This document shows positions 20,591 to 51,596 of a stretch of DNA of 64,000 bases, piece by piece. This stretch comes from Isoetes taiwanensis (lineage: Eukaryota > Streptophyta > Lycopodiopsida > Isoetales > Isoetaceae): positions 38,241,841 to 38,305,840 of the forward strand of contig JAJEKV010000002.1 in assembly GCA_021234155.1 (NCBI GenBank), given 5' to 3'. The notes below the pieces were generated by a model that was not told where the DNA came from, searched no databases, and saw only the letters and a list, made by a program, of their open reading frames with translations. The translations under genes and the position numbers were made by a program. Each line of letters opens with the position of its first letter. Positions within the stretch are counted from its first letter, which is position 1.

Positions 20591-20612
20591 TCTCAACGTG
20601 CAGAGTTTGGCT

Positions 20613-23140: not shown

Positions 23141-23541
23141 CCTAATTAGCCTGTAGACTACATGGTAAACTTTGTTGGACTTTTTGCTTCTAGTAATTGG
23201 TATTCTGATTATGACACAGATCAAAGAATTAAAGCCAGAGTTACTTAGCCTAAGGCTACATGGTATATGCTGCTGGACTTATCAGTTCGAAGTCTTTAAG
23301 TTTCCATAGCATAGAGGACTCTTTGAGAGAGGGACTTCAAATTGAAGTCCCTCTCTCAAAGAGTCCTCTATGCTATGGAAACTTAAAGACTTCGAACTGA
23401 TAAGTCCAGCAGCATATACCATGTAGCCTTAGGCTAAGTAACTCTGGCTTTAATTCTTTGATCTGTGTCATAATCAGAATACCAATTACTAGAAGCAAAA
23501 AGTCCAACAAAGTTTACCATGTAGTCTATAGGCTAATTAGG
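23141..23541. repeat. 401-bp near-perfect palindrome
   Basis: Left arm 23141-23340 is the reverse complement of right arm 23342-23541 around the single base 23341. I compared both arms base by base and see one mismatch in 200. Homology stops abruptly on the left, while on the right the array continues in the same orientation. Transcription would give a 200-bp hairpin RNA. Confidence 0.92.
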
Positions 23542-28998: not shown

Positions 28999-29170
28999 GA
29001 TAGGGTGCGTTTAAATTGAAGTAGAGAATGTGGGGCATTTAGGGACATTTAGAATACTTTTGTATATACATATGTGGCAACATTCCCATTCAAATATTCT
29101 CTATTTTTTGTAATTTTATGCCACGTTGCAACGCCATTTTATTGTTTTCTGCCACATTGCAACTCTTAAT

Positions 29171-29297
29171 AGCATCGATCCGAGCCATCGGATCGCCATT
29201 CTGGGAAAGGACGAGCTGCTATATAAGGCTATTTCCTCTTTCGCACCGGTTATCGGCGTCTTCTCACAGCAGCTCTTCTTCTATTCTCGTTGCTTTC
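29171..29297 (+). promoter_or_regulatory. Promoter-like module, copy 1
   Basis: Perfect 8-bp stem CGATCCGA / TCGGATCG with loop GCCA at 29176-29195. A TATATAAG box follows at 29220-29227, and GTTATCGGC at 29249-29257, where transcription would be expected to start. TCTTCTC and a pyrimidine-rich stretch come after. The same order occurs in the other copies. Promoter activity is inferred. Confidence 0.55.
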
Positions 29298-30429
29298 TTC
29301 GTCCACGTTGCCCCTGTCCACGATGTTTTTCTCTTTATCCACGATGTTTTTCTCTTCATCGAATCTCTTGTTTGGTATCACTACGGATCGCTTCTCAGCC
29401 TCGTCGTCTCGGTTTTCTTCTTGGCGAGTTTTCCTTGATCATCCTCTTAAAGGTTTCAATATCATCGGGATTTGTGCAATTTTGTGCAATCTTGTTCTTC
29501 CTATGTTTTCTGTCTCGATCTTGCTAACCGTGTTGCTCTCACGCTGTGCATGTCTCTCTTTTCTATTGGATGCACTCATCTTTCCTGTAGCACTATTAGC
29601 ATGCATGGTTCGGTGGCACGATTCTTGTGGGCGGCATATGCAGTCGTTGGAGTCCGTTTTTTCCGTTCTGCTGGTATCAGGTTCCTTCTTTTCGGCTTGG
29701 CATGGCTTGCTGCGATCTTCGATCTGTGCCAGCGATGAGTTCCGTGGTTGTATCCGATCCTTTCGACTGGGAGTAGCTTACTTCGATCTGTTTCCAGGTT
29801 CTAAGTCTCATTGGTATCATCCCTTTTTCTTTTCATTATGGGTTTAATCTCTTCTATATCATGCTCAGATTCTCATTCTTCTCCTCTGATTGTCAGTTTG
29901 ATTGATCTCTTCCATGTGGCCATCTCCCTGCTTCGATCTGCTCCAACCAACCCGCTCTTCTACTTCGTTGTTTTCTTTCTCGTAGCCTTCACCTTTGCCT
30001 CTTCCTACAGCGATGGGCTCAGACTACGCTTATCCTGTTTTACTTCTGCAGAAAGGGATTTTTCTTCAATTTAAACCTCTGCTGTATTCTAAGCAGATGC
30101 CTCTTAATCATCTCTGTTTTCTTCCAGAATGTTTTCAGATATGGGTTTTGGTTGCAGATCATTCCACCTAAAGCTTCCTCAAGCTCTACAATTGCATGCC
30201 TAGAAGCTTGCAGATAGAACAAGCCGTAGAACGGCCTCTCACACTCCTATTCCAGCATTCCGCAGTCATCTGACCTTGCTTCTATAAATCCGGCATGATC
30301 CCTCGCCATCCCGACCTGTTCTGACCTTGCTTTGCCCTTCCGGCCTTGTCCTCGCACAAACAGAGTCTCTTGTTAGGTTTATTTGTGTTTGTTTTCAGTT
30401 CTTATTAAATCTTTAGTTTTTATTTGTTA

Positions 30430-30510
30430 GACATCCACTAGTCTAGTTGGTTAAGGTTTAAATCCATTGTAGCAAAGACCCAAGTTCAAATCCGGCTTAG
30501 GACTCAACTT
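30430..30510 (+). mobile_element. tRNA-derived SINE or tRNA-like sequence
   Basis: TAGTCTAGTTGG (30439-30450) fits the Pol III A box. GTTCAAATCC (30484-30493) fits the B box at normal distance. The acceptor and T stems do not pair properly, so it is not a working tRNA. SINE ends are undefined. Confidence 0.5.
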
Positions 30511-30689
30511 TTCCTCACCTTTCTTTTTAAGCTTTATGTACTACGTAATGCACGCCTGGAAAAGATTCCGGCGTACAATTTTTCGAGGCGGCTCCGCCAG
30601 ACGAGGCGGCGCACGAGCGGCGGGCCACGAAGTGCGGGCGGCCGAAAAAATCTGGCGGCCTTTTCCAGCGCATTACGGCCGTAAATGAA

Positions 30690-31250
30690 CCGGCTATCGG
30701 GAATTACGCCATTGAACGACAGGCATCCAGAACGTTCCTTCTTCTTGGCTATGGCGGAGGGCGCCAGGCTATTGCGGAGGACGGCAGGCTATGGCGAGGA
30801 CAGATATGGCTATGGCGAGGGCAGATATGGCGAGGCCGGAGATATGGAGAGGGCAGATATGGCTTCGAGGATTTTTCATGGTCCGGGGCAGACGACCAGA
30901 GCAGAAAAATAGGGAAGCCAATGGAGTGAAGATCAGAATAAGGTCTGCGCCTTGATCCTCAACAATCCAAGCTCGGCAGAAGAAATCCGGCTCCAAACTG
31001 GCACGAAGAAATTTGACAGAACAAATCCGGCTCCAACTGGGTCATGAAGTTCGAAAATCTGCACTTTTCCTCCAAAAAAATGCCAAATCCTCCATACAAC
31101 TCGCCCCTATTCCTCTGTTTCTAATTTATCTGTTTCTTCCCCTTTCTTTTCTTCCTCCGCCTCTATCTATAGCTCTAATTCCGATCTACAGCTTCCGCCA
31201 TAGCTTCCGCCATAGCCCAAGCTTCAGCTTCCGCCATAGCCACAAGCTTG
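30690..31250. repeat. GCTATGGCGGAG-type short repeats in both orientations
   Basis: Repeats of GGCTATGGCGAGG and GAGGGCAGATATGG fill about 30750-30865. The inverse form (CTTCCGCCATAGC) is repeated at 31190-31240. Two AATCCGGCTCCAACTGG-like units lie at about 30984-31045 between them. A large loop could form. Confidence 0.55.
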
Positions 31251-31387
31251 AATAGCTTTTTCTTTCTTACCTGCTCCCCTGAAGTTGCAGGATGAACCTC
31301 GCAGGTCACAGGCGGCGCCGCTCCGCAAGAGCTGGAGCACGATTACGTCCTATAATTTTAAAGGAAAAATGCAGTAATTTCGGCCAA

Positions 31388-31650
31388 CCGTTCATTACGA
31401 TATTATAATGTTTCTCGCATGCATTTACTCCTTGGGTTCCTTGTTTGTAGATAATAACGGTATTGAAACGTTCTCTTTTATTATGTTCTTGTTATTTTGA
31501 TATAAATGGTTAAAAACCTTTCCTTTTAAGCTTTATGATATTATATTGTTTCTCGCATGCATGTAATCCTTATACGGTTCCTTGTTTGTAGATAACGGTT
31601 ATTGAAACGTTTTCTTTTATTATGTTCTTGTTATTTTGATATAAATGGTT
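31388..31650. repeat. Tandem duplication, ~150-bp units
   Basis: Two copies of GATATTATA, TTTCTCGCATGCAT, TCCTTGTTTGTAGATAA, TATTGAAACGTT and TGATATAAATGGTTA in the same order and orientation. Confidence 0.85.
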
Positions 31651-33451
31651 AGAAGACATGACTAACTGTGTTTCCCAGTATCTATGGTGGTCGCGATTGT
31701 TTATGGTGATCGCACTTGTTTACTTTATATTGTTTTCACCTCTCTGGCTCTGTGATTCCCTACCACATGCCTTTTCTTCTATCTCTACCAGACTTACTTT
31801 AGCCTCCGTTTAGCTTCCTTTTGCTTTTCGGCCCAGCCACTTCTTGACCTATCTTCTTAGGGTTATCTTATGCCCCTTTACATATACCCTTGGAAAGCAT
31901 TACGAGTCACATTTGCATTATATTTTCCATCATTTGGGTGGACCCTCCCATGCTTGCTCCATATCGTTATTTTCAATCTTGCTACATGCCTTGTGTTCCA
32001 AGTATTCCATATGTTGGGGTTTTTTGCTTGGGGTCATGTCGATGCTTGTTGTTCACATATTTACTATGGTAAGTTCCTTTTATAGTATTCTTTTTACGAT
32101 TATTGATTTTTGGTGGTTCTTCACGAGTACTATAACAGGTTCTCTTCTTGTTTTCACAAAGCCATCGGTTTAATTGCCTCATTTATGCATCTAGAGTTGC
32201 TACGGACATTTGCTAGGCGTAATGGGACCTACTTTTGGCCGGTTTCTCCTTCTTGCCTTTTGGTTTCCTTTGCACTTTCGTCACGGGATCCTTTCATCCT
32301 CCATCTATTCCATCGGCGGGAAATTTGTTTTTAGTTTTTCGGTGCATTTCTTAGCTCATCCATTTCTTTGTGGTGGGCTTCTTTGCTTCCACTTGTTTAT
32401 ATGGTCTATAAGCATGCCTTTAGTCCAAGATAGCCATGCTACTATTTAAATGGGTCTATGCTCTCCCTCGTCTTTGTTTTCTCTTGTTTAATGTTCTGGT
32501 TCATTTTGTGCCTCATTTTCGTCTTGTGGTCGTTTACTTGGGATGTTGTCTTGTTTTCATAATTCTACGCTGCAGTCCCATGGTTTATTATCTTTTTATT
32601 GCCCATAGATTTGTGGCCACCATCTTAGGGTTGCATTTGTCTTTTTACATTGATGCATTCCATTTCCATGGTAGGTTGCGGATATGGCCTCAATTGCGTG
32701 TTATTTCTCAGACATGTATCTCTTTTGTATGTTATTTTTTATATTGTGGTTCCCATGTGGTTATGTGGCATTCTTTTCTGCGTTTAGGATTTCCCCATGG
32801 TGGTTTGGGTTTTATCTTTTGCACTTGTGTTTGTATCTTATGTGTGATGCACTACACTTTCGGCTCGGTGGTATCGTTATTAGGGTGGTATTATCTTCTA
32901 CATTCTAGGTTTCCCATAGTTGTTGGGTTTATTTTTTTGCACTTGTGGTTTATCTTGTTTTTGATGCACCACACTCTTCCAAGCAGGTTATGCAGGTTAT
33001 TCCGGCTTGATTTTCTTGTTTATATTAAGCGCATTTTTTACTTTAGTTTCTTTTTCTCGTGGCCTATGTGTTGTTTCCTCGGGTTGTCTTTGTTGTTTTT
33101 CTATTTTATATCTTTTGCATTCTCATGGTTTCCTTCTTTTTATTGCCTCGAGATTTATTCACCATATTTGCGGGTTGCACTTTATCTTTTTATATGCATT
33201 TGCGGTTGTTAAAATATTGTTCACGATTTGTGTATGCCATCTTAGTTATTTTTAATATTTTTACATGGCTAGGTTCCAATATTCATGCTTTTGTTTGCAA
33301 CTTTTTACTCAGTAAGGCCCTATTCATGCTCTTTCACATTTTACCGCGGGATTTTTACGCATGTGCCACTGCCGGTTTTGTATCTACCATGCTTTGTTAT
33401 GGGGAGCTTCGTCACGTATTTTGCCTTGCTCACATTAGGGTTTTGAGATTA

Positions 33452-33941
33452 AAAAGGGCCTTCAAAACATGCCAACTAAGCCAAATGAAGATAAATGAAC
33501 CACAATGTCAATTTGGCACTGTGGTCGGTCCGGCAAAGCTGTTATAACTAACTTCTTGAATCACATTTTCTAGCATTTTGTTGATAGAAAAGTCAAATGA
33601 GCTCGTTTAGTGCATTAGATAGATCGTTGAGATCTTTTTCCAATCTTGGGTGCTTTGCACATATTTTAACCACTTATGATTGTCAAAACTCCAAAAATAT
33701 GGTTATTACCATTTTTACTATCCCATGGGGCTAAAAGATATGCAAACCACCCAAGATTGGAAAGATCTCAATGAGATCTATCTATTGCACAAACAAACTC
33801 ATTTGAGTTTTCTATCAACACTATGCTAGAAAATGTGATCAATGAGTTAGTTATAACTACTTTTTTGGCTTTGATTGGTCTGATTCTATTTTGATTGGTA
33901 GTTCATATAGCTTAGTCGGCCAGTTCTTAGAAGGCCCTTTT
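33452..33941. mobile_element. Foldback MITE, ~490 bp
   Basis: Ends AAAAGGGCCTTC (33452-33463) and GAAGGCCCTTTT (33930-33941) are perfect inverted repeats. Inside, about 33542-33662 and 33738-33852 are long inverted arms (GTTATAACTAACT, CACATTTTCTAGCAT and AGATAGATC on one side, inverse on the other). No coding sequence. The composition is balanced, unlike the T-rich host. A target duplication is not evident. Confidence 0.8.
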
Positions 33942-34228
33942 ATGATCTAAAAAAATCCCTAATGCTCGATCATTGTTCGTATTCTGCTTTCTGTCGGTAT
34001 CTAATGATGTGGTTTTGGGGATTATCGCATTGTTCATGTTGTTATTCATCGTGTTTTACATTGTCTCTAGCATTGGGCTCTTATGCGGGGTTATTTTCTT
34101 ATTGATTTGTTCATTTGGCTTACATTCTTCCTTTCTCATATTTCTGCGTGGGCTTAGCATACCTTTGTTGTCTTTTGGGGCTTCATTTTTTAGCTTCGCT
34201 ATCATTATGCATTATTGCTACCATTATA

Positions 34229-34450
34229 CATCATATTTGCTATTTAGCTATATTTGGGCGTACATTTACGTTTTATCATGTTTTCTCTTCCACCCATTTG
34301 GGTGATGCTTTTCTCCACCCCGGGTATCCTTATGCATTGTGCTCCCCTATACATCATATTTGATATTTAGCTATATTTGCACACAAATTTCTGTTTATCA
34401 TGTTTTTCTTCCACCCATTGGGTGATGCTTTTCTCCACCCCGGGTGATCT
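34229..34450. repeat. Tandem duplication, ~120-bp units, with CCACCC hairpins
   Basis: Two units each contain ATTTAGCTATATTTG, TTATCATGTTTT, CCACCCATT-GGGTGATGC and TTTTCTCCACCCCGGGT. Confidence 0.85.
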
Positions 34451-34795
34451 TTATAAATCTCTTTTTCATGAATCGTTGATTCTTTCTCATTTCTAATCGG
34501 CTCACCTCCTTTTGAGTGCTTGTAGTTTTGCGGTTTGCCGCTTCACCATTATGCACGTTCTTGTTCTCCTTAACGGCTCATGGGTTGCCTTCTACATGTT
34601 CTGCCGTACCGCGCTTGGTCGTTGGCTCCTCTTCATCTCACCCTCGCTCTCGTTTTTTGTGCCCGGGCTCGAGACCACAGGGTTTTTCCTGTGGCGAATT
34701 TGGGCTTATAGTTTATCATCGATTCGCCTCATTTTATTATTTGCACTCCATTAAGCTCGTTGGCCATTGACCGAACTCAATGCTTGGAGGTTTGG

Positions 34796-34826
34796 CGACT
34801 CTCTCCCTCCCTCCCTCCCCCCTCCT

Positions 34827-34868
<42 letters not shown>
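34796..34868. repeat. (CCCT)n then (CT)n microsatellite
   Basis: CCCT units followed by an uninterrupted CT run. Confidence 0.95.
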
Positions 34869-34869
<1 letters not shown>

Positions 34870-36289
34870 CTTCCTCTTGTCGTTCTTACGTTTCCCATTC
34901 AAATTATTTTTGTGACATGTTTTCCACCTCTTTCTCCTTTGTGGCTCAATTTCTTATATGTATATTCTATATTTGGTTTGATTAAGATCTTTGGGTTTTG
35001 AATATTTGGAGGTTGTGTTTAAGATTTTTCTTCTTTTTGGCATGATCATCGGGGAACTCTAGTGTTTGTTGGTTCCTTTGTTCACTTTATTAGCGCACTT
35101 ATTTGTTGCTTCATGAAGTTATATTTTCTATTCTTGAACATGGGTGTGGGTGATATTGTTGATTATTACCAATTTTATGGATTTGGGAGCTTCTTTGTTT
35201 TCGTTAGCTCCACTTTGTCATGTTCCGCGGTAGGCTGATTTTTCGTGCATAGCTTTGCTCCCTATATATGATATTACATACTCATTGTGTAAGTTTGAGG
35301 CGTTGCTTTATTAGACATGGTTGACTTTTCATGTTCTTTTAGCCCCTAGTTTTTATCATTCTTCCCCGTTTCCTCCATTTTTTGCTCGATATACAAGGCC
35401 CACATGTTGAGGTTCGTACTCTCGGTTGCTGGCGGTCCTCGTCCTCTCGCTTTCGCTTCACGTGGTGTGCGACTCTACTCAACATCTCCATGTTTCGTTC
35501 GATCTTTATGTCTATGCATTTTTGCATTCCCTAGCGTAAGTTTTTCCTCTTTGCCTTATTATCTCGGTTACTTGTTATTCTTCCTTCTTATTTATCGTTA
35601 TTATTATTCTTTTTGGGGATCCATGATGAAGGGTTCCTTTGTTGACTTATCTCCCTCTAGCTATTGGCCACAGGTTCGGAAGGGATAATAGCCATATTTT
35701 TGGACTTGTCCGTAGCCCCATTCCACGGACGATTCAGGCATTTGTATTCAACTTCGATCCAACTATCTGGGCCCCTTCCCCGATTCATCATCGTGGCGGC
35801 GTCTTTTCTTTTCATTGTTTTTGTCATTGGTGATCTTCGATCCATAGCAGGCATTTTCGGCTCTTCTTCTTCAACTTCGCTTTTCTCTCCACGGCTCGCT
35901 CGCGCTGCTGGTTCTCGTCGTCAACGCGTAGCTTCCCTCGCGCTTGAACCAGACTCTTCGGACCCTAGTTCCCTTTCTCCCCCTGCCACTCCAAAGCAGA
36001 GACCCACTTGCGTGCTCATATGATTTCTTTAGCTTCGCTTGCGCCCGTTCGCATGCACGGCCCTCACTATCCTTGAGCCTCGGCCCTCTTTTTCGCTCCT
36101 CTCCTTCCTCTCTACGTCCTTATCCTATCCGATTGCTTGGGTGGTGGTGGCGCTCCTCTTCTTCTTCTCCCGCTATATGCTTTGCGACCCAACTCCACAT
36201 CTGGCGGTTCTAAATTTGTCTATTGAGGGTTTTGCACTTGTGGCGGATCTTTTTTCTATTTGGTATGCTCATTACATATCTTTTTGCAT

Positions 36290-36610
36290 ATTTGCTATTT
36301 GGCTTTATCTAGATAGGATGCATATTCGTTTAGCCTTTGCATTGAGATTTTTAGACATGGGTTTATATTGGATTATCTTTCATTTTATGCTTCTCTTTAT
36401 TTAGATATGGGGTGTCCTACATTGTTGTCCACAAGGTGCACATTCTAATTTGTGCATGGGTTGCTATTTAACTTTATCTGGATATGATGCATATGCGTTT
36501 GGCACCACATTGAGATTTTCTGCGACATGGGTTTCTATTGGATCATTTTTTTCCTTTTTATGCTTCTCTTTATCTAGACATGGCGTGTCTTACGTTGTTA
36601 TATACAAAAG
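36290..36610. repeat. Tandem duplication, ~175-bp units
   Basis: Both units contain GCTATTT-CTTTATCT-GATA, TTGAGATTTT, ACATGGGTTT, TATTGGAT and TATGCTTCTCTTTAT, ending in a GTGTC-TAC block. They are moderately diverged. Confidence 0.75.
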
Positions 36611-36849
36611 CTGTTATATTGGGCACATTTTAATGGCCACTTTTAGTTTGTTTCGTGTTCTTGATGTTCTTTTTATGGTTTTACATTGATGCTTATCTTT
36701 CTCTAGATGTCGGCTTTTTTATGGAGCGTTTTTTTGTTGGGTGGTGCTGTTTTTCCCGAGTGATGGTGACATTCATGTCTATTTATCATCTTTAGTGATG
36801 TTGTAAATAACATTGTCTAGCTTTATTTTGCAATGCATATTTCTTTTTC

Positions 36850-37135
36850 GTGATTGTTATCCACGGATTGGGTGGCGCTTTTTCCACCATGGTGGTGATG
36901 CTATTTCCACTGCGGGTGATCTTTGTTTATTTCTAACTCGTGGTGGCGATATTTCTTTTTTATGTAATTGTTTTCCACGGTTGGGTGATGCATAATTGTT
37001 TTCCACCCATTGGGTGATGCTATCTCCACACGAGGGTGATCTTGTTTATTTCCACCTCGGGGTGGCGCATATTTCTTTCTCGTAATTGTTTTCCACGGAT
37101 TTGGGTCTGCTGTTCTCCACCGTATTGGGGTGATG
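36850..37135. repeat. Array of small CCACCN/NGGTGG hairpins
   Basis: At least seven short self-complementary units such as CCACCATGGTGG, CCACCCATTGGGTG and CCACCTCGGGGTGG, each preceded by TTTTT or TATTT and followed by ATGC, ATCTT or CGC. Further units occur at 34290-34440 and 38205-38250. The loops and stem bases vary together. Confidence 0.65.
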
Positions 37136-37288
37136 CTCTCTTTTTCGCTACATGTTGAATCTTCTCTAACCATTCACGGGTGGTTTTGAGTTCTTTGTGT
37201 TGTTGCTTGCGGGTTTTCGCCCTCGGTTTATAGTTAAGGAAGTTCTTTGGTAGTGGCCGGTTTTGTGTCTCTTGCGAGTCCTTTCCCG

Positions 37289-37410
37289 AATAGCATCGAT
37301 CCAGAGCCATCGGATCGCCATACAAGGAAAGACCAGCTTCTATAAGGCTATTTCCTCTTCGCGCAGGTTATCGGCGTCTTCTCCGGCGGACTCTTCTTCT
37401 ATTCTCGTTG
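37289..37410 (+). promoter_or_regulatory. Promoter-like module, copy 2
   Basis: Stem CGATCC(A)GA / TCGGATCG at 37297-37317 with a bulged A. TATAAG lies at 37341-37346 and GTTATCGGC at 37367-37375. Upstream sequence from about 37215 is also shared with the unit at about 37933-38060, a direct repeat of roughly 720 bp period. Confidence 0.5.
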
Positions 37411-37591
37411 CTTCCCTCCCTTCCATACTGGCTGCGTGAGGGCATGAGTTTTCTTTCTCTAACAATTCACGGGTATTTTTAGGGGTTTTTGTATTGCTTG
37501 CGGGCTTAGCCCTCTTACGGGTCCTTGCTATGTTTTTGTGTTCGCCATCAACTCATCTCTTTCGGTTTCCAGCAACACATTCAAGGTTGTT

Positions 37592-37668
37592 GGCGACCAT
37601 TTCTCATTAGGGTTTTCCTCGAAAACCCGAAAGGGCGGGGTTTTTTATCCCGATGAGAAGTTGTCGCC
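37592..37668 (+). ncRNA. Cloverleaf-like structured element, copy 1
   Basis: Outer stem 37592-37607 with 37653-37668: 15 of 16 positions pair, one of them G-T. Inside, GGGTTTTC/GAAAACCC forms an 8-bp hairpin with a 3-base loop. CGGGG/TCCCG then forms a 5-bp hairpin with a 7-base T-rich loop. Whether it acts as RNA is inferred. Confidence 0.45.
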
Positions 37669-38010
37669 ATTACCCTTTTATATTGCCTGTGCACATTTCT
37701 TTTTATGGGGTAGTCCGATATTATTCCTATGGTCGGCTATCCCTCTCTATTCTTCCAAACACTGTATACTGCTGCTGTGATGAATGACAAGCCTATCTAT
37801 TCCTCTTCTCTCAGCAGTACCTTATTCTCTTTGAATTGTTTCCAGGCAGGGGAGGGGCTTCTTCCTGCCTGGTTTAGCCAATTTGGCGTCTCTTTCATGC
37901 TATCCTTTACTGGCCTTTGGCCTCGTCCTGTGACCTTCGTCCTCGATCCTAGTTTGTAAGGAAGTTCTCTGGTAGTCGGGCGGTTTGTTGGTTTCTTGTG
38001 AGTCCCATTC

Positions 38011-38060
38011 TAGAATCGCATCGATCCGAGACATCGGATCGCCATTCTAGAATGGGACGA
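38011..38060 (+). promoter_or_regulatory. Promoter-like module, copy 3 (TATA lost)
   Basis: Perfect stem CGATCCGA / TCGGATCG with loop GACA at 38022-38041, then CCATTCTAGAATGGGACGAG. Where the TATA box should follow there is a GCATGCATG-type palindromic run instead. Confidence 0.5.
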
Positions 38061-38387
38061 GCATGCATGTCATGCATGCATGCGGGCGGCGCATGCCCGT
38101 TTTGGTTGGGAGTTCGCTATTTCAGGCGCGTTTCTGCATCCACGTCTCATCGGCGCTTCCTCTCCCTTCTTTGTTTATTATATTTTGTACAAGTTCTGTT
38201 TATCATGTTTTTCCACCCGCTGGGTGATGTTTTTTTTTCCACCCGCTGGGTGATGCTATTCTCTGGTATGTTTTCTCGTTTGTTGTGTTGGTGATGTGCA
38301 GGTACAGGTTGGCGAGCGGCATCTGTTTCGACTTCTCCATGCGGGGGTTTTTGGGAGCGATTCTATGCCTTACGTTTGTCTAAGCCC

Positions 38388-38473
38388 CTTGCCGAAGGCT
38401 TATCACTAGGGTTTTTTCCTCGAAAACCCGAAAGGGCGGGGTTTTTTAATCCCGGTGATAAGCTTTCGGCAGG
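38388..38473 (+). ncRNA. Cloverleaf-like structured element, copy 2
   Basis: Outer stem 38388-38406 with 38455-38473 pairs at all 19 positions, allowing G-T. The stem sequence differs from copy 1 at most positions. The inner core (GGGTTTT/AAAACCC hairpin, then CGGGG/TCCCG with a T-rich loop) is nearly identical to copy 1. Confidence 0.5.
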
Positions 38474-38810
38474 TACATCAGCCACTCATCTATTAGCATT
38501 GTATTTTTTTGGGGTCCAAATGATATAATTGGATTTTCCCTTTATTTTTCGTGGGTAGTTCGCATGTGTGCGGCTACCCACTGTCCACCATTGTAGAAAA
38601 TCCTTACTCTTAATCATTTGTTGTTGAGGCACTTAATTCTTGCCGAGATTCTATTTCGAAGCCGTCGAGGTAAAACTAAACTAATCAAACCAACTAAACT
38701 TTCCCTCTCTTTCTGTACTGCCGGAATTTCAATTTCATCAAGCAAAGTATCCTTGGCATCAATAGAGTTTTATCAATTGTAAAAGAAGCATCCAGCCTCA
38801 AAATTGACGG

Positions 38811-40260: not shown

Positions 40261-40496
40261 ATGAACAAGGATGTTGGTTGCAAAGAATAACATGTAGCTT
40301 ACAAATTTTAACGGGTGGTTTTGTGGTTGTTGACATCGAGTTCATTTAATAACCTATATGTTCCTCTAGATTACCCACATTGTCAACTGTTATTGTGCTC
40401 ATCTTCATCATATAGGTTGAAGTCTCCCATAACTATCAAGGCATATACCCTATTGAACATACACTATGCGCATATTTGCATACTTTATATGGGTCT

Positions 40497-40533
40497 ATTC
40501 TTAGGATGGGTCCTAGATCAACACATATCAGCC
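40497..40533 (+). repeat. 37-bp direct repeat, copy 1
   Basis: Identical to 41606-41642: begins ATTCTTAGGATGGGTCC and ends ACACATATCAGCC. Confidence 0.9.
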
Positions 40534-40560
40534 TTGAAGTGAAGTGGTATTCTCATTGAG

Positions 40561-41089
40561 CTCTTTGAAAAATCACTGAGTACAAATTGGCTCCCCCCCA
40601 CTAGGTTAAGGAATTTGAAAACCATTGATATATAGAAAATGCTTTTCTAGAAACTAGACAATCATCGAGCATATCAAATGATAATAAAAGGTAAAAGTAT
40701 AATCCATCTGCTATAAATATCGAACCAAGGCAAAGGTCATTGGCTAAGGTAACCTTCTTTTATATGACAATCGATAGGCCTTCAAGAGCTCGACAACAAT
40801 CGTCCCGACCCCATATTCATGTTTGTGAAGAACATATGGATGCAAGCAGAGACTTCTCGTCTCGTCGTAATTTTTGAAAGGTATGACAACGATCGCAAAA
40901 GTGCTAATTGAGACCAGCTGAAAAAACCTGCAAGCTCAAAATTGTTCCCCAGTTAAATGTTAGTAAGTGATTTAGGGACTTTCATGATAAAGCCAAGTAG
41001 AAAAGATATCCATGAGTCATCCACTCGAATAGAGACAAGAAAACCAACATATAGAAACATCGTTGAACTAGAAAGAACATCCATATGAT
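40561..41089. other. No gene recognised
   Basis: AT-rich spacer without motif or strong repeat. Confidence 0.4.
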
Positions 41090-41280
41090 GCTACCTCGGA
41101 GGCTACAATGCCACGCCGAGAAAATAAATAACAAGTAGCTGACAAATTAGGGCAAGACTCCCCATAGGTGTCCTAGAGGCCATCAAATGCCACGCTGAGA
41201 AAATATACAAAATAGACAGCCGACCAATTCCAACTGGTGCTGCCTCGGAGGCTACAACACCACGCCGACAATATATATAT
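41090..41280. repeat. Diverged tandem repeat, ~75-bp units
   Basis: Three units: GCTACCTCGGAGGCTACAAT, a middle copy with GTCCTAGAGGCCATCAAATG, and GCTGCCTCGGAGGCTACAAC. Each leads into CCACGC-GA. Confidence 0.7.
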
Positions 41281-41441
41281 AAAAAACCTATAATCCAAAG
41301 ATAGATGGCTGATCATGAACATTAAATCCTGCTAGTCAGAGGCTTCAATCCTACCTAAGAGATAAAGTTCACAAGTACCAAATTGAACAAACATCTGACT
41401 GTTTACCACATGAATCCCAGATCAACACATAGGGGAGGGTG

Positions 41442-41608
41442 GGATGGGACACTAGAAGCAAGAGAAGATGGAGCAACCAAGGTAGGAGCTCAAGAGAATG
41501 CCGATAACTTGCCATAGCATAATGAGGCTATATATAGAGCCAACAGGAATAGGCGTCCCCATCCAAAGAATGTTGGTTCTATTGCTATCGCAATAGAACC
41601 ATGGCATT
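41442..41608 (-). promoter_or_regulatory. Promoter-like module, minus-strand copy (left of a 167-bp direct repeat pair)
   Basis: Differs from 51430-51596 at one base by eye. Read on the minus strand: an 11-bp stem GGTTCTATTGC / GCAATAGAACC with a 4-base loop (41575-41600), TATATATA (41529-41536), then GTTATCGGC (41500-41508). The TATA-to-GTTATCGGC gap of about 21 nt equals that of the plus-strand modules at 29171 and 37289. The stem sequence is entirely different, yet still pairs. Confidence 0.6.
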
Positions 41609-41642
41609 CTTAGGATGGGTCCTAGATCAACACATATCAGCC
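41606..41642 (+). repeat. 37-bp direct repeat, copy 2
   Basis: Matches 40497-40533 exactly. It overlaps the edge of the 167-bp module by three bases. Confidence 0.9.
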
Positions 41643-41649
41643 GATAGAA

Positions 41650-44600
41650 GAGGAACATATCTCAACATCATCAATATCAATGTGAGAGGAAATAAAACAT
41701 GTCAATTAGAGGGTCAGACTAATGGAGTAAATGAAACGTGATAACTATGAACTCAACGGGGCAAAAACAAACAAAGAATCCAATGGGACAAACGAATGTA
41801 AACCTATAAGTATAAAATGAAAAAATGAAATAAGTTGAGATCACTTTATTAGAGAAAAGATAGACAAAATGAATAATAAGATGAGTGGGACGAATATGAA
41901 AAATGCGTAAGGACATGTGAAGATGCTAGGTTACAATGGCCAACACCTAACAACAGCTTTCAAATCAAAGGATCAAGTGTTCCTCGTGTTGGACAATATG
42001 AAGTAACTGGAGTACCAATGACTAGAGAAACAAAGGGCATACAACAAAAAATATAGCACGTTAGTGGAATTTGCAGAGCAAGTAGACTAAACCCATAAAA
42101 GGGACAAAGGGAACAAAAGGAAAAGCAATTTAAAGGAATGAAAGAAATGGAGCAAATAAGAATAACAGCACGTGGAAAGGGAAAATGGAAGCAAACAAGA
42201 TAAAAGCATCTACATAACATCGAGCTATGAAGCAGAAATGGAGCTGGGCCACGCTAGGATGGAAACTGAACCAATAGGCGTACTGGAGCAGTCTAGAGTA
42301 AGTGGAACAAGGAGAACAATAGACAGACAAATGGAATAAATGGAACTCATAAAGTATAATGAAACAGATGAAACTTTGTCATAAAGTATCTAGCAATGTG
42401 TAAGAACATAATACATAAATTATTATGATCACAAAGGTCATGCGACAACAAATCCATATCAAATGAACGAAACTAACAGAATGAAATGATTACCTATTTG
42501 CACAGATAGAACATTCGTTACTCTCTAGCCGAGCAAAATAGAGCCAACAAAATTCAAGAAACAAGTATGATCGCTAAAGCAATTGAAACTAAAAAAGGAA
42601 CACGACATGTGAAGACGCCAAGCCAAGTAAATAGAGTCAATACAGCAAATGGAGAAATAATAAAAAGGATGAGATGGAACAACAAGGTCGATAAAGACAA
42701 GACCACCTTAACACAAAGGAACATTAAAGTGGCAAATAAGACTACATGACTGGAACCCAAACTAGCAAGCAGAGTGAAAATAAGCATTAGTACTAAGGTA
42801 ATACCTTGAGTCGAAATATTGCAAAAAATAAGGAAAAGGCACTAAGGGAATCAAATAAAAAAGTAAATAGAATTAAAGATGCAAAACAAGTGACAACTAG
42901 AACAAACGACTATGGAGTTAATGGAAGAAAATAGAACAAAATAGAACAAATGGGACTAAAGAGACTAGCAAATAATATAAATGACAAAAATGAAGCAAGT
43001 GGAAACGAAGATTAAATGAAAAAGAGGAGAATGGATTCAACAGATTAAAGGAGCGAAACGGACTATTAAGACTAATATTAACACTAGCGCCAACTACAAG
43101 TACATGCATGAAATACCTACACAAATCAAACTATTGAAGCAAATGTAACAATAATAAAAACATGATCACGAAACCTAATTGAACCAATGAAAATAACCTC
43201 AGTGGGCCTGATAAAGTTGATGAAGACAAGACCACCTTAATACAAAGAAAAAGTGAATGAAACAGGTGATAAAAACAACAGAATTACAAGCAAAGGGTAC
43301 AAGGGAACCAACAAGTAAAAATAAAAAAGCAAAATAAGAGAAATGAAATTGAAGCAATTGCAGGAATACATCAAGTAAATAGCTGACAAAAGGATTAATG
43401 AGATAGATAGAATATATAGACAATATTGGAGTTTTAGAAAACAGAAGAAATTGGAACCAAAATAACAAAGGTAGTAGTACCTTGAACTGAACTGCCGCAA
43501 AAAGAAGCAAAAGGAACTAAGGGGTTTAAATACTAATAAGCAACCCTAGAACAAAGGATGCAACTAGAGCAAGTAGAACAATGAATGAAAAGAATAGTGG
43601 AACTAACACATCTATCTGCATACATGAATCTACATCTAATGCTAAAGCAAAGGAAAGCCTCAAAGAAGTTCCAATAATAAAACCAATGATCTACTGACAA
43701 CTAGAAACAAAAGACTATGGAGATAATGGCACAAATTAGAACAAACATGACAAATTGGGCTAGCAAAATGCAACAAAGTAAATAATCAAAGAAGTGGGAG
43801 AAGACCAAAGAGAATAATAGAATAGAATGGATCCAACAAGATTAAAGGAGCAAGAGAGAATACTAGGATCAATGGATTATGTAAAATAACACTAGAGCCC
43901 AAAATGACTAAAGGCGCCAATGGAATACCTAGACAAATTCAACTATTGGAGCAACTGAACAATGATCCAAAAAGAGCAAATTGCAAGGAAAGTTTTAATC
44001 TAAAATGAAAAGAGACAAATATGATGGTCTAAAAGGGGCCAAAACGAGAATAAAGGGAAACAAATTGACGCGAAATGAAACAAATAGAGAACTAGAGACA
44101 CTCATATAATGAATGGGGTTACTTCAACTAATGGAATATATAGCCATAATGGAACTACTAACGAGAACAAAACAACATGGAGCCAACAAAGCAAAGAGGC
44201 AAGTATACCCAAAGGATCTAAACATATAGCGAGGAGCGAAAAAGGATGGGTGGAAAAAAGGGTATATTACAGTGAGGAGCACAAAGGACCTTGGAAAAAT
44301 CTAGGGATAGAGAGGGTGGGGCGTAATAAAAGCTGTAGGAATCTTGCCAAATTGGGCGAAGAAACCGGAACTAGAAGAACAAGATGAAAACAAGGTACAA
44401 ATGGCTACAAGAATTAATGAAGAAAACAAAGTACAAATGGCTCTGGGAATGGATTAAAAGGAGCAAATTAGAACAAAAGGGGACTAATGGGATACAAAAT
44501 GAGATGATTAAATGAAAACTAGTAGAACAAGCGCAACACATGGGATAATTCAGAAAAGAAAGCGAAAAAAATAAAAAAAGGGAACTAACATGAACAATGG

Positions 44601-45860
44601 ACCTAAGGGAGACAACTAGATCAAAGGAACTCCTGAATTAAAGAAATTAAATGAAATGTAAATAATAAACCAATGGAGCAAAAGCAGAGCAAAATATAGA
44701 CTTCAAATGGGAACTGACATCCAAATGAAAAATTGAAGTGTAGATACCGCCAACTAGTCAACCTTTGATAACAACCCTAACCAACAGACATAATTGAAAG
44801 AACTTAGAAAAGACATGTACACATGAAGACCCTCGATTTCATGTGGAAACAAACATACAAGAAAATACTGGAGATCAAGAAACGAACCTGGATGAATAAT
44901 TTATGTAACATTAACTTTTCACTGAATGATTATCCAAAGCAAAATAGCACCTTTGAAAGTAAAATTTGCAACCTTGTAAAAATAACCAGCAAGAAGGATG
45001 ATAGTAACAATGCATGAACCTCAACCAAATGGTGCAGTCCAAAGACAAAAGACTTAATACCTTTGTACAAATGAAAGCCAAAAGCATAATGTCAATCCAC
45101 GCTTAATCCAAAAGGAGGCTAAAGCATGTGACTCTTACTCCAAAGTGTGAACCCTATAGAGACTCTAAGTCATTAAAGGATAGGACTTACCAACGTTTAA
45201 ATGATCAGGATTTATTATGGAGAAGTATCTCTAAGTTGAAGCTTAAACGAAATTTAAATGGTCATATCGGTTTTGTAGTAGGAACTAACAAACATGAAAA
45301 CTCAAACAAAGGAATTTGTTATGTAAAACTAATCATAGGGACTTGTGGCACATGGGTAAAGTGGCAACAAAGGGGAGCCGCTAGGAGAATAGCAACCAAC
45401 CGGACTCAATGGCCATAATAGATGAAACATGATGGATAATAGGCGATGAATATTAGGAAAAGCAACAAAGGCATTCAAAAGAAATTATAGAACAAAGTAG
45501 GTCTAGTGATGTACTAATGTGAGGGGCAGACTTGGACAAACTAAGCAACCTCGTGCTAAGCTAAACCTCATCATACCAATGCTTAGCTACCATTAAAAAA
45601 TGAATCAATGTCATAATATACAGGTTTCTTGAGCGAAGCATATACTGAAAAGGATCAGAGACATTTTATACTAGAGGCAATGATATGGAGCAGGCTAAGG
45701 GGAGTGGTCCAAAATAAAAGACTAAGGCAATGGGTATATTCACATTGTTGAAACAATGGGGAAACAAGTAATTCGAAAATAGCAATCAAAAGTTAGAATG
45801 GGAAATAGCTAACTTCAAGAAAAGGGGGCAACGAAATATCTATACGAGCAACTATTCTTA
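41650..45860 (-). other. A-rich non-coding domain (T-rich on minus strand) with ~0.75-kb duplication
   Basis: Purine-rich on the plus strand, a mirror image of the T-rich domain at 29-38.5 kb. No believable gene. Internal direct repeats include GACAAGACCACCTTAA at 42698 and 43227, ACTATGGAG-TAATGG at 42910 and 43723, and ATTAAAGGAGC at 43043 and 43843. These show a diverged duplication with period 0.5-0.8 kb. Confidence 0.5.
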
Positions 45861-48800
45861 GGGTACCTTCCTTTTGTAGTTAAGTTAGGAATAAGTTAAT
45901 TTTTTTAACTGCCAGTTAAACTTATAAGAGACTCTTGTGTTCGCACCAAGACTGTGTTAACTTTCCGTTAAGACTTTAACCCCTACTTGAGAAACTAGTT
46001 AAATCCTTTGAGACTAGAACAAGTTAGGTTATTTTTTTTAACTTAACAATAAAATAAAAATGTGTTCGCACTTGCCTTAGTTAAGTTAGTGCTAACTTAA
46101 TGCTAACGGCAATTTCTTCGCATAGGTGCCTATTAAGTTAGTCTAACTTAAAATTTAGCGGCAATGCCTTAGCACATTAGATCCCTTAGGTTATTTTTTT
46201 TAACTTAATGCTAGCGGCAATACCTTCCGCATACCTCCGTTAAGTTTTATTTTTGTTTTCTATTAAATTGCTTCAAACAATTGTCCTCTTCTTGTGCCAT
46301 GAACAAATTAACATACATGAACTCATAACCATCATGATATCATGCACTTGTTGATCATATATTCCATCTCATTAAAACACTACATAATCAACTTGTTATT
46401 CAAAGCTTATCATTGGATTCAAAGCTTATCGTTAAAGAAAACCATGCATTTATTCAAAGGACATATAGAAAACTTAGGAAGGAGATTAATTCCGTTATAT
46501 ACGGAACTTGAGTTATGAGTTATTCTCGATGAGGTATGCATAGCAAGAAGCCACTCCCTACAATGTCATATTATGTTTGTTCTTGAATTTCATTTCAATA
46601 CTTCCATTATTTGTCATTTATTATTATATGCTAGAGGTTTAAAGCGGGGGCTCCAATTTATCTTCTCCTTCTTCATTTGCTCCATTACTTCCATGGTAGG
46701 AATCAAGTTGTCACACTTGCAAAGACCATCAATCAAAGCAATATATGTTACTACCAATTCGAGTACATATCTGCGACATCCGGCCTCCTCTAAATCATAT
46801 AGCGATTGAATCATATAGCATATCTGCGGCATCGGCTCTCTATCTATGCGGCATATCTGCGACATATCATATAGCATATCTCTCGCATAAGTGTAAATCA
46901 TATCTACGACATCGGTTCCTCTAAATCATATAGCGGTGTGAATCATAAATCAAGTAGTCTTTAATAGGTGGTCACCGTGTCCCTCGTATTGGTAATGAGA
47001 ATGAAGTCAGCGTCACGAAAATCACATGAGAGATCGATATCACGAGGAGGCATCTAGATCTGCTCACGAAAATAAAGACAACTCTATGCGACCATGTCAT
47101 GATGTATCATCATGGCATTCATAATATCTGAGAATGGATTAAAAAATGCTTTATCATAAGAGTTTTGGCCGAGGATTTTATGGCGACCATATGATCGAAA
47201 ATAATATCGACAGTTGTGAGAATTTATAGCGACCATATGATTGATTTATATAAGATGTAGCCATTCAATCAAGAACTTGCATTTGGAATGGTGTACACAT
47301 CTTATAGATGAGAATATCATTGCTTTTCCTCATTGCAACATTTAGAGAAGCTTTGATTTGCAAAGCTATTGTTCAAGCATCGATTGATCATGCAATATAG
47401 AAAATTACAAATGATATGTTATTCTTGTATGAGGGAATTTTACTTAACAATCGTCGAATATAAGCGACGTAGGTTCATCAAAAAATTGTTGCGAGCTGTA
47501 ATAACATCAAGCTATTGGAACTAAATATTGTCCCCTCACATTATAGCCACAATAGAAGTTGTTGCAACCATGAAATTTCCTTGTGGATGCAAGGCATATC
47601 TTGAGCTGCATGAACACCCGGTAGCTTTGTCAATTTGGAGTACAACAAATAATGTAAGGTATAAAGCATTTCCATTTTCCACTTACATCAGCGGTTAGCT
47701 CTATCAAGTGAGAATACATTCTGAGAACAAAGTGAATGTAGGAAAAAATTGAATGAAATGTAAGGCGTGCATGGATCAACTAGCATATCACGTTTACTAT
47801 GATTAGAATTTTTTCTCTCTAGAATGCTATAGGCTATCTGCTCTGTCGTTGTTTGTCGATCAAGTTGGATTTATCCTTAATGCATTCTGAGAATAACATT
47901 ATTTCATGTTAGAAATTGCATGCACTAGATTATTTTCCTACTAAATCACATGTTACTAGATTGTTTTCTCAATTGCAAAATCCTGTATTATGACAACTTC
48001 ATAGTCCATGCATGGTTATGAAACGCTGCTAAGCCTTTGGTGGACACATCCGATTGTAGAAGGATTGCTGATGACACCTACCCCAACAAAGGCTCATATA
48101 TAGACTAAAATAATGCATGAAGACTCACTTCTTCCATGCTTCTTAGAGCAGCACACACCCATCCTGCAAACAAACCAGACATACTACTGAAGTACGAAAT
48201 AAACAGGAAGGAAAAACACATTCTCATTTTTGTTTTGCTCTAACATTTTTAGATTTCCTCCAGCAAATTTCTAAATCGAAATTATTCCAAAGGGTTTGGA
48301 TTGCAAAGACTAATTCTGAAGCTTTGAGAAAAGGAAAGGAGAGGGTAGTGTGTTGGCATAAAACTTTCAAAACTTAAGATGCAATAAGCATTTGGCATAG
48401 CGGATTTTTTATAGCCTTTGCATTTACGGTAACTAATCCATTCTACATCCCGGGGATCATTATGAATTACTAAACAAATGTGGATCCGGAGTTACGGCAT
48501 ATGCAATTACATCAGGAATGGGATATGTAAATGCCCCCCTAGGGTGCAAACCTAGGTGAACAAAGGTGGTCGTTGTCCTTTTAATCCTTCCTTGATTCAT
48601 TGCTTTCGGATTTATTTAAAACACATGCCTTAAACATCCCACCTGCTGCTCAAACTCTTAAATTCATGTGCTCCTGGCTTGGCATCTGCAGATTGACATA
48701 ATGGGCCACATCTTCTACCTCGATTCGAATCAAAGGTACGCCAATTTTTTATCTCGGGATTTAGGGGTTTTCGTCACACAAATCGTTCTCTAGAGATAAT

Positions 48801-49473
48801 TTTTGGCCATTTTCTTAAATGTTGATTTGGGGCTTTTTCCATGGATTCTACATTCTTCTTATTTATTATATCCACATGTCATTGTTTTAGAAGCTAAGCT
48901 TTTCTATAAAGGCAAAGCTAAACCCACCATGATTCCGGAGTGTTGATTCCAAAGGGCCTCTTGATCAACCTAACAAATACTACTCTATCATCTATTGGAC
49001 TTTTTGGTTTTACGTGACAATTCAATAAACCATCGTAACACCATCAACACCTCAGCCTTTCCATCCCATAGGTTCAATAGATTCAAAGTTTACAATTTCA
49101 ATACATCACGAGCAAGACGATGGCTGACAGTTATTGCAATTAAAAAGTCTGGCGACCAGCGTTTCCGTGATCGTGACCACCCTTTGCAACCCGGCCCGGC
49201 CAGGTGTTAGAGCTCGGATAGCGGCATTTAAAGTGACCTCACGAGGAGGTCACTTTAAGTTTTAGTTCATTTTTATTTTGGGTTAACTTCGTTAAATTTA
49301 GTAACTTAACAAATTGGTGCGAAGGGTGTTTGGGTTAGGAATTTTAGGTTAATAAAATTAGCGGAATACTAATTATATAACTAAGCGGAACACTAACCTA
49401 ACTTGTGGTGTGAACCCTAAAGCTGCTAAAACCTTAACCCAATCCTAAAATAACGGTTGGTGCGAAGGTACCC
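45861..49473. mobile_element. PIF/Harbinger-like DNA element, 3.6 kb, no recognisable transposase
   Basis: TIRs GGGTACCTTC (45861-45870) and GAAGGTACCC (49464-49473) are perfect inverses. They are flanked on both sides by TTA (45858-45860 and 49474-49476), the duplication typical of PIF/Harbinger elements. Both ends are rich in TTAAGTTAG and GTTCGCACC-type motifs. Inside I find no DDE transposase; the small minus-strand frame at 46614-46901 is unrecognised. A hairpin with a 13-bp stem (AGTGACCTC core) lies at 49228-49258, and ATATCTGCGACAT-type short repeats at about 46760-46930. Likely a non-autonomous or gutted copy inserted in the A-rich domain. Confidence 0.65.
49228..49258. repeat. Perfect 13-bp-stem hairpin
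   Basis: TTAAAGTGACCTC pairs with GAGGTCACTTTAA across a 5-base loop, inside the subterminal part of the Harbinger-like element. Confidence 0.85.
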
Positions 49474-49476
49474 TTA

Positions 49477-51429
49477 GGAACAAAAAGGGGAAGGGGTCGA
49501 GATTGAAATAGCCATTCTATTTCTAGGATGCCTTTTATCGGATAAACAAAGGAAATTTGAACAAATATAAGTAAGCGGACCTCAGTTCGGTTAGAAGCCA
49601 TCTAACTTGGCTCAGGCCTCGGGATATCCGGTTCTTTGCTGCCACCTTAGTTCCGACCTTCTCTTCACCGATCTGAGCTAGCTTGGAATACCGCAGGGAA
49701 GCCCTCTTGCCAGCATCGGCTCTACTGCCTCGCTTGCTGAAGCCCCAGCTTTTGATTTCTCTGGATCTATAATTGCTGGTCAAGAGCTGAAGGGAAATAA
49801 GCCTTGACCCATCCCTCTCATTTTAAATCCTTTGGAATTGCCTTAGCTTGGATCCGGTTGGGTGGAACCTGGATGCTCCATATTTTGTTGTGGAAACAGT
49901 AAGCTATTGCTCTGGTGAAGAGCTAATATAAAGTCTCAATTGCTACCCCTTGACTTTGTATTTTGGTTTATGTTTTTGTATTTTGGTTTATGTTATTGTA
50001 GTTCTGGAGAAGTAAACCTTGCTCAACCCACATCCGTCTGCTATCTTACCTTTGTATAAGCCAAGCAAGCTTTTCTAAATTCATACTTGAACTAAGATTT
50101 ATTGCTAGACGGAATTACTTGCAAATATTTTGAAAATTGGCTATCATGTAAACGCTGGAGGCAGAACACTTTTGCATGACAGCAGACATAAACTCATTTG
50201 TCAGTGAGCATTCAAATTGGAGACTAATGGCGGATAGAGAGGAGACCATGATTGCAGCAAGCTTACTATCCGAATCGCAGCGAGAACCAAAATGGCAGAC
50301 TGACCACTCTTATTTGCAGCACAGTTATGAATTAAGACAACTCAACTTAGTAATTGAATAAGAAATAAAATGGAATACCAACCATCCGGTATCCTTTATC
50401 AACAAATACACAGCAATGCACGGGATACACATGAATGCCACAAACTGAAAAAGAAAGAGAGAAAACTGACCGCTTTTATAGACCTGTTTACTTTGGAAAT
50501 CCATAGGTATCTGCAGCAAAAGGATTTGATGTCGACCATAGCCAGAGCTTACATCCACAGTCGGGGGAGATGAGGAGATGAATCGACAGCAACAAAAGGC
50601 GGTTCATTGAATCTCCAGGGGGGTAATGGAGATGAATCGACAGCAATAGGAGGGGCATCCTTAGTTAGGAGCTCTCCACGTCCGGCAGGGTAGTTTCTAC
50701 TTTGCGGCCCCCCCTGCTGGATGATGACATCTCCACCGTTGATGGCTTTTTTGAAGCCAGATCCACCGTCAGATGGGATAGGGGGGCCGTAAACTAGAAG
50801 TGTCCCCTACGTTCTTGCCATCTGATCCCAAACACGGCAGGAATCCTTTGCCGTCCTTATGCATGTCACTGTGAAATCACTAATAATATCCTGGAGATGA
50901 ATCGCCAACAAGAAACAGGGCCTCTTTGAATATGCACATCAATAGATAATCTGATTGAATCTGCAATTGGAAAGAAGAAAATATGGAGTGAAGAACCCCG
51001 CCATGTCCATCGATTAAAGATAACAAAAGGATGTGGATATTGCCACGCCAAAATACAAAAATCTGGTACAGCGCTGCCATACACATCAAAATAGAAGATG
51101 TGCAGACAAGAGAAAGGCAAGCCTGCATCAAATCAAACCGACCCTCGAAACCCAAGAATCATCCATCGAGAAAAACACAATATATGGAGGAAAAACTCGA
51201 AGCAATCTTGTCAAATTCATACATACAGCTAAGCTGTAAAAACTTCTACAAACACAGTGATAAAACCTCCATCCAAGCCCCAAGCATCCAGGGATCAAAA
51301 TTTCTGCGTGTAGCTAGCAAATTATTTCACAAAGGAAACATCAAATACAAGATCAAAACCAATGCATCACACAAGAAGGCAAAAGCGTAATCTACAAAAA
51401 CAAAAAATTAAGTAGGAAGTAGGTAGATA
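49477..51429. other. Non-coding, with a foldback near 50690-50805
   Basis: No gene recognised. CTACTTTGCGGCCCCCC (about 50698-50714) is roughly inverse to the segment GGGGGGCCGTAAACTAG at about 50780-50798. The unit GGAGATGAATCGACAGCAA is present near 50573 and near 50629. Minus-strand T-richness continues toward the 51430 module. Confidence 0.4.
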
Positions 51430-51596
51430 GGATGAGACACTAGAAGCAAGAGAAGATGGAGCAACCAAGGTAGGAGCTCAAGAGAATGCCGATAACTTGC
51501 CATAGCATAATGAGGCTATATATAGAGCCAACAGGAATAGGCGTCCCCATCCAAAGAATGTTGGTTCTATTGCTATCGCAATAGAACCATGGCATT
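51430..51596 (-). promoter_or_regulatory. Promoter-like module, minus-strand copy (right of the 167-bp pair)
   Basis: Almost identical to 41442-41608, offset 9988 bp with no indel. Stem-loop 51563-51588, TATATATA 51517-51524, GTTATCGGC (minus) 51488-51496. Reading leftwards from it, the minus strand becomes T-rich, as in the plus-strand domain. Confidence 0.6.

Follow-up and report, generated by a model that had tools for sequence, protein, structure and literature searches.

A promoter-like module of Isoetes taiwanensis as the probable terminal repeat of DIRS-order tyrosine recombinase retrotransposons

This analysis concerns a stretch of 64,000 nucleotides from the quillwort Isoetes taiwanensis (positions 38,241,841 to 38,305,840 of contig JAJEKV010000002.1, assembly GCA_021234155.1; hereafter the window), in which a module that consists of a stem-loop, a TATA box and the motif GTTATCGGC recurs. 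We propose, with a probability of roughly 0.88, that this module is the A repeat of DIRS-order retrotransposons that encode a tyrosine recombinase (YR), have the structure A1-[open reading frame (ORF) 1, reverse transcriptase (RT), RNase H, YR]-B1-A2-unique sequence-B2 and are integrated by the YR. The proposal is carried by the order of the repeats, their link to RT and YR frames, insertion at an AAT-like triplet with no target duplication, and the covariation between the end of B and an inner part of A. A sequence-only reading of the window had described a recurring promoter-like module; the layout of a TATA promoter was supported, but the module is not free-standing and would instead be the A terminal repeat of a YR retrotransposon.

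Results

The comparison of the window with itself revealed an element of 11.1 kb on the minus strand (40497-51596) whose repeats follow the order A1 ... B1 A2 ... B2. All five places at which the module had been reported (29171, 37289 and 38011 on the plus strand; 41608 and 51596 on the minus strand) were confirmed by direct reading, and the copies at 51596 and 41608 are A1 and A2 of a single insertion, which is closed by B2 at 40497. A1 (51430-51596) forms the left end with the junction triplet AAT at 51596-51594 and matches A2 (41442-41608) at 166 of 167 positions, the two 167-bp repeats having the same orientation and lying about 10 kb apart. Upstream of A1 lies host DNA, which can be followed into an unoccupied site. 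Within A1 are the inner stem-loop GGTTCTATTGC-GATA-GCAATAGAACC (51563-51588), the TATA box TATATATA (51517-51524), the first T of which is 31 nt from the A of GTTA, and GTTATCGGC (51488-51496), the presumed transcription start; A2 has its own stem, TATA box and GTTATCGGC. The second minus copy begins with 37 bp (B1, 41606-41642) that recur 1.1 kb further on with 37/37 identity as B2 (40497-40533), which, as also indicated by the unoccupied site, is the right end and carries AAT at 40499-40497. Folding of the B1/A2 junction produced a nested palindrome (41558-41619) that is composed of the outer arms CCCATCCTAAGAAT / ATTCTTTGGATGGG and the inner stem. All of these features are on the minus strand. 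A nested insert of about 3.6 kb with short inverted ends, GGGTACCTTCG / GGTACCTTCC (45862-49473, no strand assigned), looks like a DNA transposon and is missing from a relative, L025. The minus element had no match to the proteins of its coding relatives, and its ends are 73-89% similar to theirs over short stretches; it is a non-coding member, which relatives with coding capacity at other genomic places presumably mobilised.

The plan of stem, TATA box and start motif that had been described for the copies was found in four of them, with 29-32 nt between the first T of the TATA box and the A of GTTA. In the fifth, at 38011 (junction AAT at 38014), the stem alone is kept: the TATA box is missing, as had been noted, and so is the exact GTTATCGGC, which is replaced by a diverged CTCATCGGCG further on. 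The exact GTTATCGGC was found four times in the window (29249 and 37367 on the plus strand; 41508 and 51496 on the minus strand). With one mismatch allowed, this 9-mer was not enriched in the window (5 found vs 6.7 expected), and hence the argument depends on the ordered module across the whole genome. The I. taiwanensis assembly (1,658,258,908 bases, 1110 contigs) contained 693 matches to GAAT-N30..60-GGACG-N30..60-GTTATCGGC compared to 9 for the reversed pattern; for a narrower pattern, which includes TATAAATA, there were 9 matches and, in the reversed control, 3. Searches with each of the two modules yielded 1910 and 1818 first-look candidates, 40 of which were scored per module; among the scored matches, same-strand pairs of copies about 6-14 kb apart were present on ten contigs. 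In two such pairs (C1090 and C1034), the first copy begins at the stem and the second has additional upstream sequence. Moreover, the 128-bp A1 unit of the plus strand recurs elsewhere in the genome with an identity of up to 100%.

Four whole copies (L025-L028) were cut out. A1, B1, A2 and B2 were all present in L025, L026 and L028; in L027, A1 and A2 are identical (131/131) and no B2 was recognised. No RT or YR frame was recognised in the lists of ORFs of at least 80 aa for these four copies, which were read without a Pfam scan. The genome search with PF00589 gave at least 75 matches, 68 of them above the cut-off, with 148 of 246 candidates scored. The stem module was present at seven of the eight YR loci that were fetched, and its outer stem begins 37-46 nt past the YR stop codon. 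Modules with the exact GTTATCGGC directly follow the YR frame at four of the eight, with the GGTTCTATTGC stem in L033 and L035 and the CGATCCGA stem in L034 and L036; in L029, L030 and L031, the start motif of the stem module differs slightly. Four of the eight loci were also cut out as longer pieces (L037-L040), in which B1A2 and B2 come after the RT-RNase H and YR frames. A1 was included in L037 and L040, both of which have the split repeats (A1 ... B1 A2 ... B2). The YR is on the same strand as the RT, and B1A2 lies downstream of the YR. Between A1 and A2 there are 0-2 substitutions in L025, L026, L027, L028, L040 and the minus element of the window, with one additional gap column in L028, and no substitutions but 16 gap columns in L037. 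Since such pairs are up to 100% identical, recent movement is suggested.

In Pfam, the RT frames matched RVT_1 (5.3e-16, 1.8e-15 and 6.8e-15), and all four YR frames that were scanned matched Phage_integrase (6.8e-10 to 6.3e-9). The RNase H families were matched weakly, below the cut-off, and no integrase match was obtained in the named frames, which alone were scanned. The residues R, K, HxxR, W and Y, which we take to be the motif residues of the YR, are conserved in a seven-row alignment; the nearest solved structure is Cre, with a weak E value of 0.007. The region after RNase H matched Dam (PF05869) with E values of 0.07 in L029 and of 0.11 and 0.29 in L036 and L039, which represent the same locus; Dam was not listed for L032, and a profile search of this region against PDB returned one unrelated match. 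With regard to the Gag zinc finger that marks the Pat1-like group, a CX2CX4HX4C (CCHC) motif occurs in L038, L039 and L040, with the Pfam zinc knuckle at E 0.022, below the cut-off. Between the two stem families, the RT is 54% and the YR 52% identical.

The insertion sites were read with the flanks of two insertions joined. For L028, the search gave 3091 first-look candidates, and all 40 of the places scored matched the joined flanks as one contiguous stretch (96-99%); L028 therefore sits in a high-copy repeat, the other copies of which are unoccupied at that point. The joined flanks of the minus element matched across the junction at one place (query 37-238, 91%), and the remaining matches were the element's own two flanks, or were partial and weaker. 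In the five unoccupied sites that were read for the two insertions, the host triplet, GAT for L028 and AAT for the minus element, is present once and there is no target duplication; next to the junction, L028 departs from its unoccupied copies at one base. As the triplet before A1, 28 of 32 copies had AAT, two TAT and two GAT.

The inner stems differ between the plus and the minus copies, as had been claimed. However, the two minus copies are 166/167 identical, and thus represent one family and not independent evidence for kept pairing. The sequence-only reading had covered the inner stem alone, whereas an outer stem of 14-15 bp surrounds it where a B repeat precedes: the end of B, 14-15 nt long, pairs with an inner part of A and encloses the inner stem, whereas the host DNA before A1 shows no such outer pairing. 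Genome-wide copies, which had been named as the check for compensating changes in the stem, did contain such changes. Sixty places were sampled for diversity, 51 among the first listed matches to the 693-match pattern and nine from the TATAAATA pattern, and these gave 104 raw modules, 94 after identical stretches were removed, of which 87 were parsed and seven were not. The copies were classed as B-type or A1-type by the sequence further upstream, which misclassed the A1 of L027 as B-type. Out of 18 ungapped pairs, the 55 B-type copies formed 13.1 on average (at least 14 in 36 copies), compared to 7.0 in the 32 A1-type copies (at least 14 in none). The arm of B paired better with its own A than with other A sequences (p=5e-5, 35 distinct B-type pairs), including within the CGATCCGA family alone (p=0.018, 31 pairs), and for the commonest double change, T-A vs C-G, the 17 readable ungapped copies were split 9/0/0/8.

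Two alignments of the junctions were counted. In the 25-row alignment (24 of the 40 distinct junctions and the window copy, without length variants), 97.4% of the cells pair and 5 of the 23 pairs changed on both sides. In the 38-row alignment (37 of the 40 and the window copy, with length variants; the A1-type L080, L089 and L096 were left out), 91.9% of the cells pair and 9 of the 23 pairs changed on both sides, eight of them in the outer stem. None of 500 shuffles reached the number of doubly changed pairs in either alignment. Slid registers were 28-54% paired; in the larger alignment they reached up to eight doubly changed pairs, so that there the pair count is weaker evidence than the fraction paired. 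In the inner stem, a single pair was doubly changed among members of the CGATCCGA family, and the two families have entirely different sequences there. Folded as single-stranded DNA, the B1A2 junction of the window (41556-41625) reached -24.7 kcal/mol (z -9.7) and the junction at 38002-38058 reached -21.3 kcal/mol (z -7.9). Because the outer stem shows the strongest covariation and is present only where B joins A, the joining of ends and recombination explain the hairpin better than a promoter does. The earlier suggestion that the hairpin matters is thus supported by the kept pairing, and its function would more probably lie in recombination than in the promoter.

The plus-strand region from 29168 to about 38.5 kb is a decayed composite that is joined to the tail of a second family and was presumably moved by coding relatives elsewhere. 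It comprises the A1 of an element with the CGATCCGA stem (29168-29295; TATA box at 29220, GTTATCGGC at 29249), a B1 (37235-37291), with 37222-37424 matching the B1 of the coding relatives at 81%, and a decayed A2 (37289-37413), in which 114 of the 130 columns aligned agree with A1. Short stretches at 35865-35986 and at about 35987-36152 are left over from ORF1 and the YR frame, respectively; their DNA is 80-85% identical to that of the coding relatives, and no protein-level match was found for 35865-36152 at E 1e-3. Direct reading, self-comparison and folding identified the TATA-less copy as a B and the start of an A of a second, related family (37957-38062), with perfect 15-bp arms, GTCCCATTCTAGAAT / ATTCTAGAATGGGAC, at 38002-38058; this type of junction recurs at the locus L020. 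No B2 was found in the plus region.

Downstream of A2 in elements of the CGATCCGA family there is a second hairpin (H2), which has a near-fixed core of 29 nt and stems that vary in sequence and retain their pairing. In the window, it lies on the plus strand between A2 and the expected B2 (37590-37669), and the H2 of the second family has another stem and the same core (38387-38473, plus strand). The core CCTCGAAAACCC-loop-GGGCGGGGTTTTT had 3226 exact matches in the genome and none in the reversed control. In 39 distinct copies, the loop was GAAA in 29, TTCG in four and others in six, and the mean pairing was 15.0 for own arms and 11.6 for mismatched arms, a difference given without a significance test. 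H2 also occurs outside these elements in several repeat families; the repeat that L028 entered itself carries an H2-like hairpin. H2 looks like a structured RNA and corresponded to no Rfam family at the gathering level. In the coding family with the GGTTCTATTGC stem, H2 was not seen in L037 and L040, which have another hairpin, ACCAACCGGT / ACCGGTTGGT, about 96-147 nt past A2. The Rfam scan of the window gave no match at the gathering level. A relaxed scan of 37400-38600 returned three matches, mir-9413 on the H2 of the second family (E 0.0016), mir-3146 on the 38002-38058 palindrome and PsrR1 (both E 0.59); all were far below gathering and were treated as hairpin look-alikes.

Elsewhere in the window, there is a near-perfect palindrome of 401 bp (23141-23541, 99.3%) and a pair of 1.8-kb inverted repeats that are 91% identical and reach the window edge (57979-59732 and 62222-64000). 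An open frame of 277 aa on the plus strand (20586-21419) gave matches to calcium-dependent protein kinases, the best of them in PDB at E 6.8e-61, and is probably a host gene or a retrocopy.

Discussion

The features described above suggest how the elements might move. A1 would carry the promoter, and transcription would begin at the GTTATCGGC of A1, some 29-32 nt away from the TATA box. As this presumed start lies inside A, the RNA derived from A1 would contain A2 and B2 but not the first 80-105 nt of the element, and reverse transcription could regain the missing left end from A2. B1A2 would represent the two ends joined and could template the closure of a circular cDNA, as has been proposed for the DIRS order, after which the YR would insert the circle via the AAT triplet. 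The nested B/A palindrome may be the recognition site of the YR, with one arm being the right end of the element and the other lying inside A. The arm sequence is specific to each family, and so both arms must change together; that family-specific arms stay complementary is compatible with a paired recognition site.

The same covariation can be read in other ways. The attC sites of integrons are imperfect palindromes of variable sequence and kept pairing that are recombined by a YR, and in bacteria they act as a folded single strand. By analogy, the YR could act on a folded hairpin of single-stranded cDNA, the arms of which drift while the pairing is kept; we consider this version improbable. 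Somewhat less improbable, though still unlikely, is a hairpin that works in the RNA, in the priming of reverse transcription, packaging or 3' end formation, close to the 3' part at B1A2. The compensating changes, the GU-type intermediates among the pair counts and the position of the stem inside the predicted element RNA would all suit such a role. However, the circle junction is expected to hold the same joined sequence, AAT, the triplet of the crossover, is part of the outer arm, and complementary arms are also expected of double-stranded half-sites.

An LTR (long terminal repeat) retrotransposon, or a large non-coding derivative of one, with the module in its LTR would account for a promoter that is repeated in direct orientation at both ends and for copies of about 7 kb as well as for many non-coding copies. 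This is hardly credible, as the left end is A alone while the right region is B1-A2-unique sequence-B2, neither a target duplication nor complete LTRs at both ends were found, and YR frames follow RT-RNase H, with no integrase match in the frames scanned. Just as improbable is a host promoter of the small-RNA or housekeeping type whose core layout was picked up by the elements: the TATA box is at the usual plant distance and the flanks are pyrimidine-rich, but the module copies that were read sit at the ends of elements, and within the window, to which this check was confined, no downstream host gene was seen. Tandem copies of a Penelope-like element were rejected since they would have more than A in common and no such homology was seen. 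A Helitron end was considered and dropped; no Helitron search was made.

Several observations weigh against the interpretation as YR retrotransposons with a paired end site. In 14 of the 55 B-type copies, including the misclassed A1 of L027, fewer than 12 of the 18 arm pairs were formed, and 37275-37345 (z -1.8) and the A1 at 29168 (z -2.0) fold weakly. At the YR locus L032, the B1 end runs into unrelated DNA with no A2 adjoining it; such an end would be compatible with use of the internal junction for recombination, although this is a single case. Moreover, the methyltransferase region scored below the cut-off in every frame scanned, some frames of the coding copies are interrupted, and no copy was established as all-open.

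RT, YR, split repeats and insertion without target duplication, which were the features of the DIRS order that were tested, were all found. Among the known groups, described here from excerpts of the cited papers, the PAT superfamily (PAT, Toc and Kangaroo) is known from the green algae Chlamydomonas and Volvox and has split direct repeats A1-B1-A2-B2, a YR and no target duplication, as here (PMC3266345). It differs in its methyltransferase domain, which is only weakly matched here, and in its algal hosts, the host here being a lycophyte; the nested B/A palindrome may be a further difference. Ngaro elements have the order A1-[ORFs]-B1A2B2 with RT, RNase H and YR on one strand, as here (PMC8547959). 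Unlike in Ngaro, A2 and B2 are about 0.4-0.9 kb of unique sequence apart, and a possible methyltransferase-like region is present. An Ngaro-like rather than PAT-like assignment is a possibility, although the less favoured one: B1A2 downstream of the YR and YR and RT on the same strand have been described for Ngaro (PMC4157794) and the Dam matches are below the cut-off, while the conserved region after RNase H, with its weak Dam matches, lies where the methyltransferase of DIRS and PAT sits. DIRS1-like elements have a YR, a 3-bp circular junction that is often AAT and no target duplication, as here (PMC3266345); DIRS1 has inverted terminal repeats, whereas the elements here have split direct repeats. 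The terminal repeats of DIRS-1 from Dictyostelium are reported to have promoter activity (PMC4482531).

We call the elements members of the DIRS order in a new host group. In the excerpted part of a 2022 review of land-plant transposable elements, DIRS is omitted as being found in green algae only (PMC9033089), and the excerpt of a 2011 survey described green plants as devoid of DIRS1-like elements (PMC3266345). The excerpted work on ALOG proteins derived a land-plant protein domain from a DIRS-type recombinase and placed the elements themselves in animals and a brown alga (PMC3537659). In the parts available, DIRS is put among plant elements in a figure of a 2024 review, as a general-level statement (PMC11630846), the label is used for plants in general terms (PMC6696364), and a table of the C-fern genome contains 361 fragments labelled as DIRS (45 kb), which is evidence at the level of labels (PMC6890710). 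Neither DIRS nor Ngaro is mentioned in the main text of the I. taiwanensis paper or in that of the I. sinensis paper. Among the papers listed, our literature search found none that pairs Isoetes with a tyrosine recombinase and no described land-plant element of the DIRS order.

Hundreds of modules and dozens of YR matches were found on contigs of up to 53 Mb, and their presence in a quillwort would extend DIRS-order elements to a vascular plant. The module is a simple handle for finding such elements, including the non-coding ones, and the many families offer naturally occurring material for the study of how retroelement ends are recognised by a recombinase. If the folded-site reading were true, a eukaryotic retrotransposon would be using a strategy like that of attC, and this in a plant lineage that was thought to be free of such elements.

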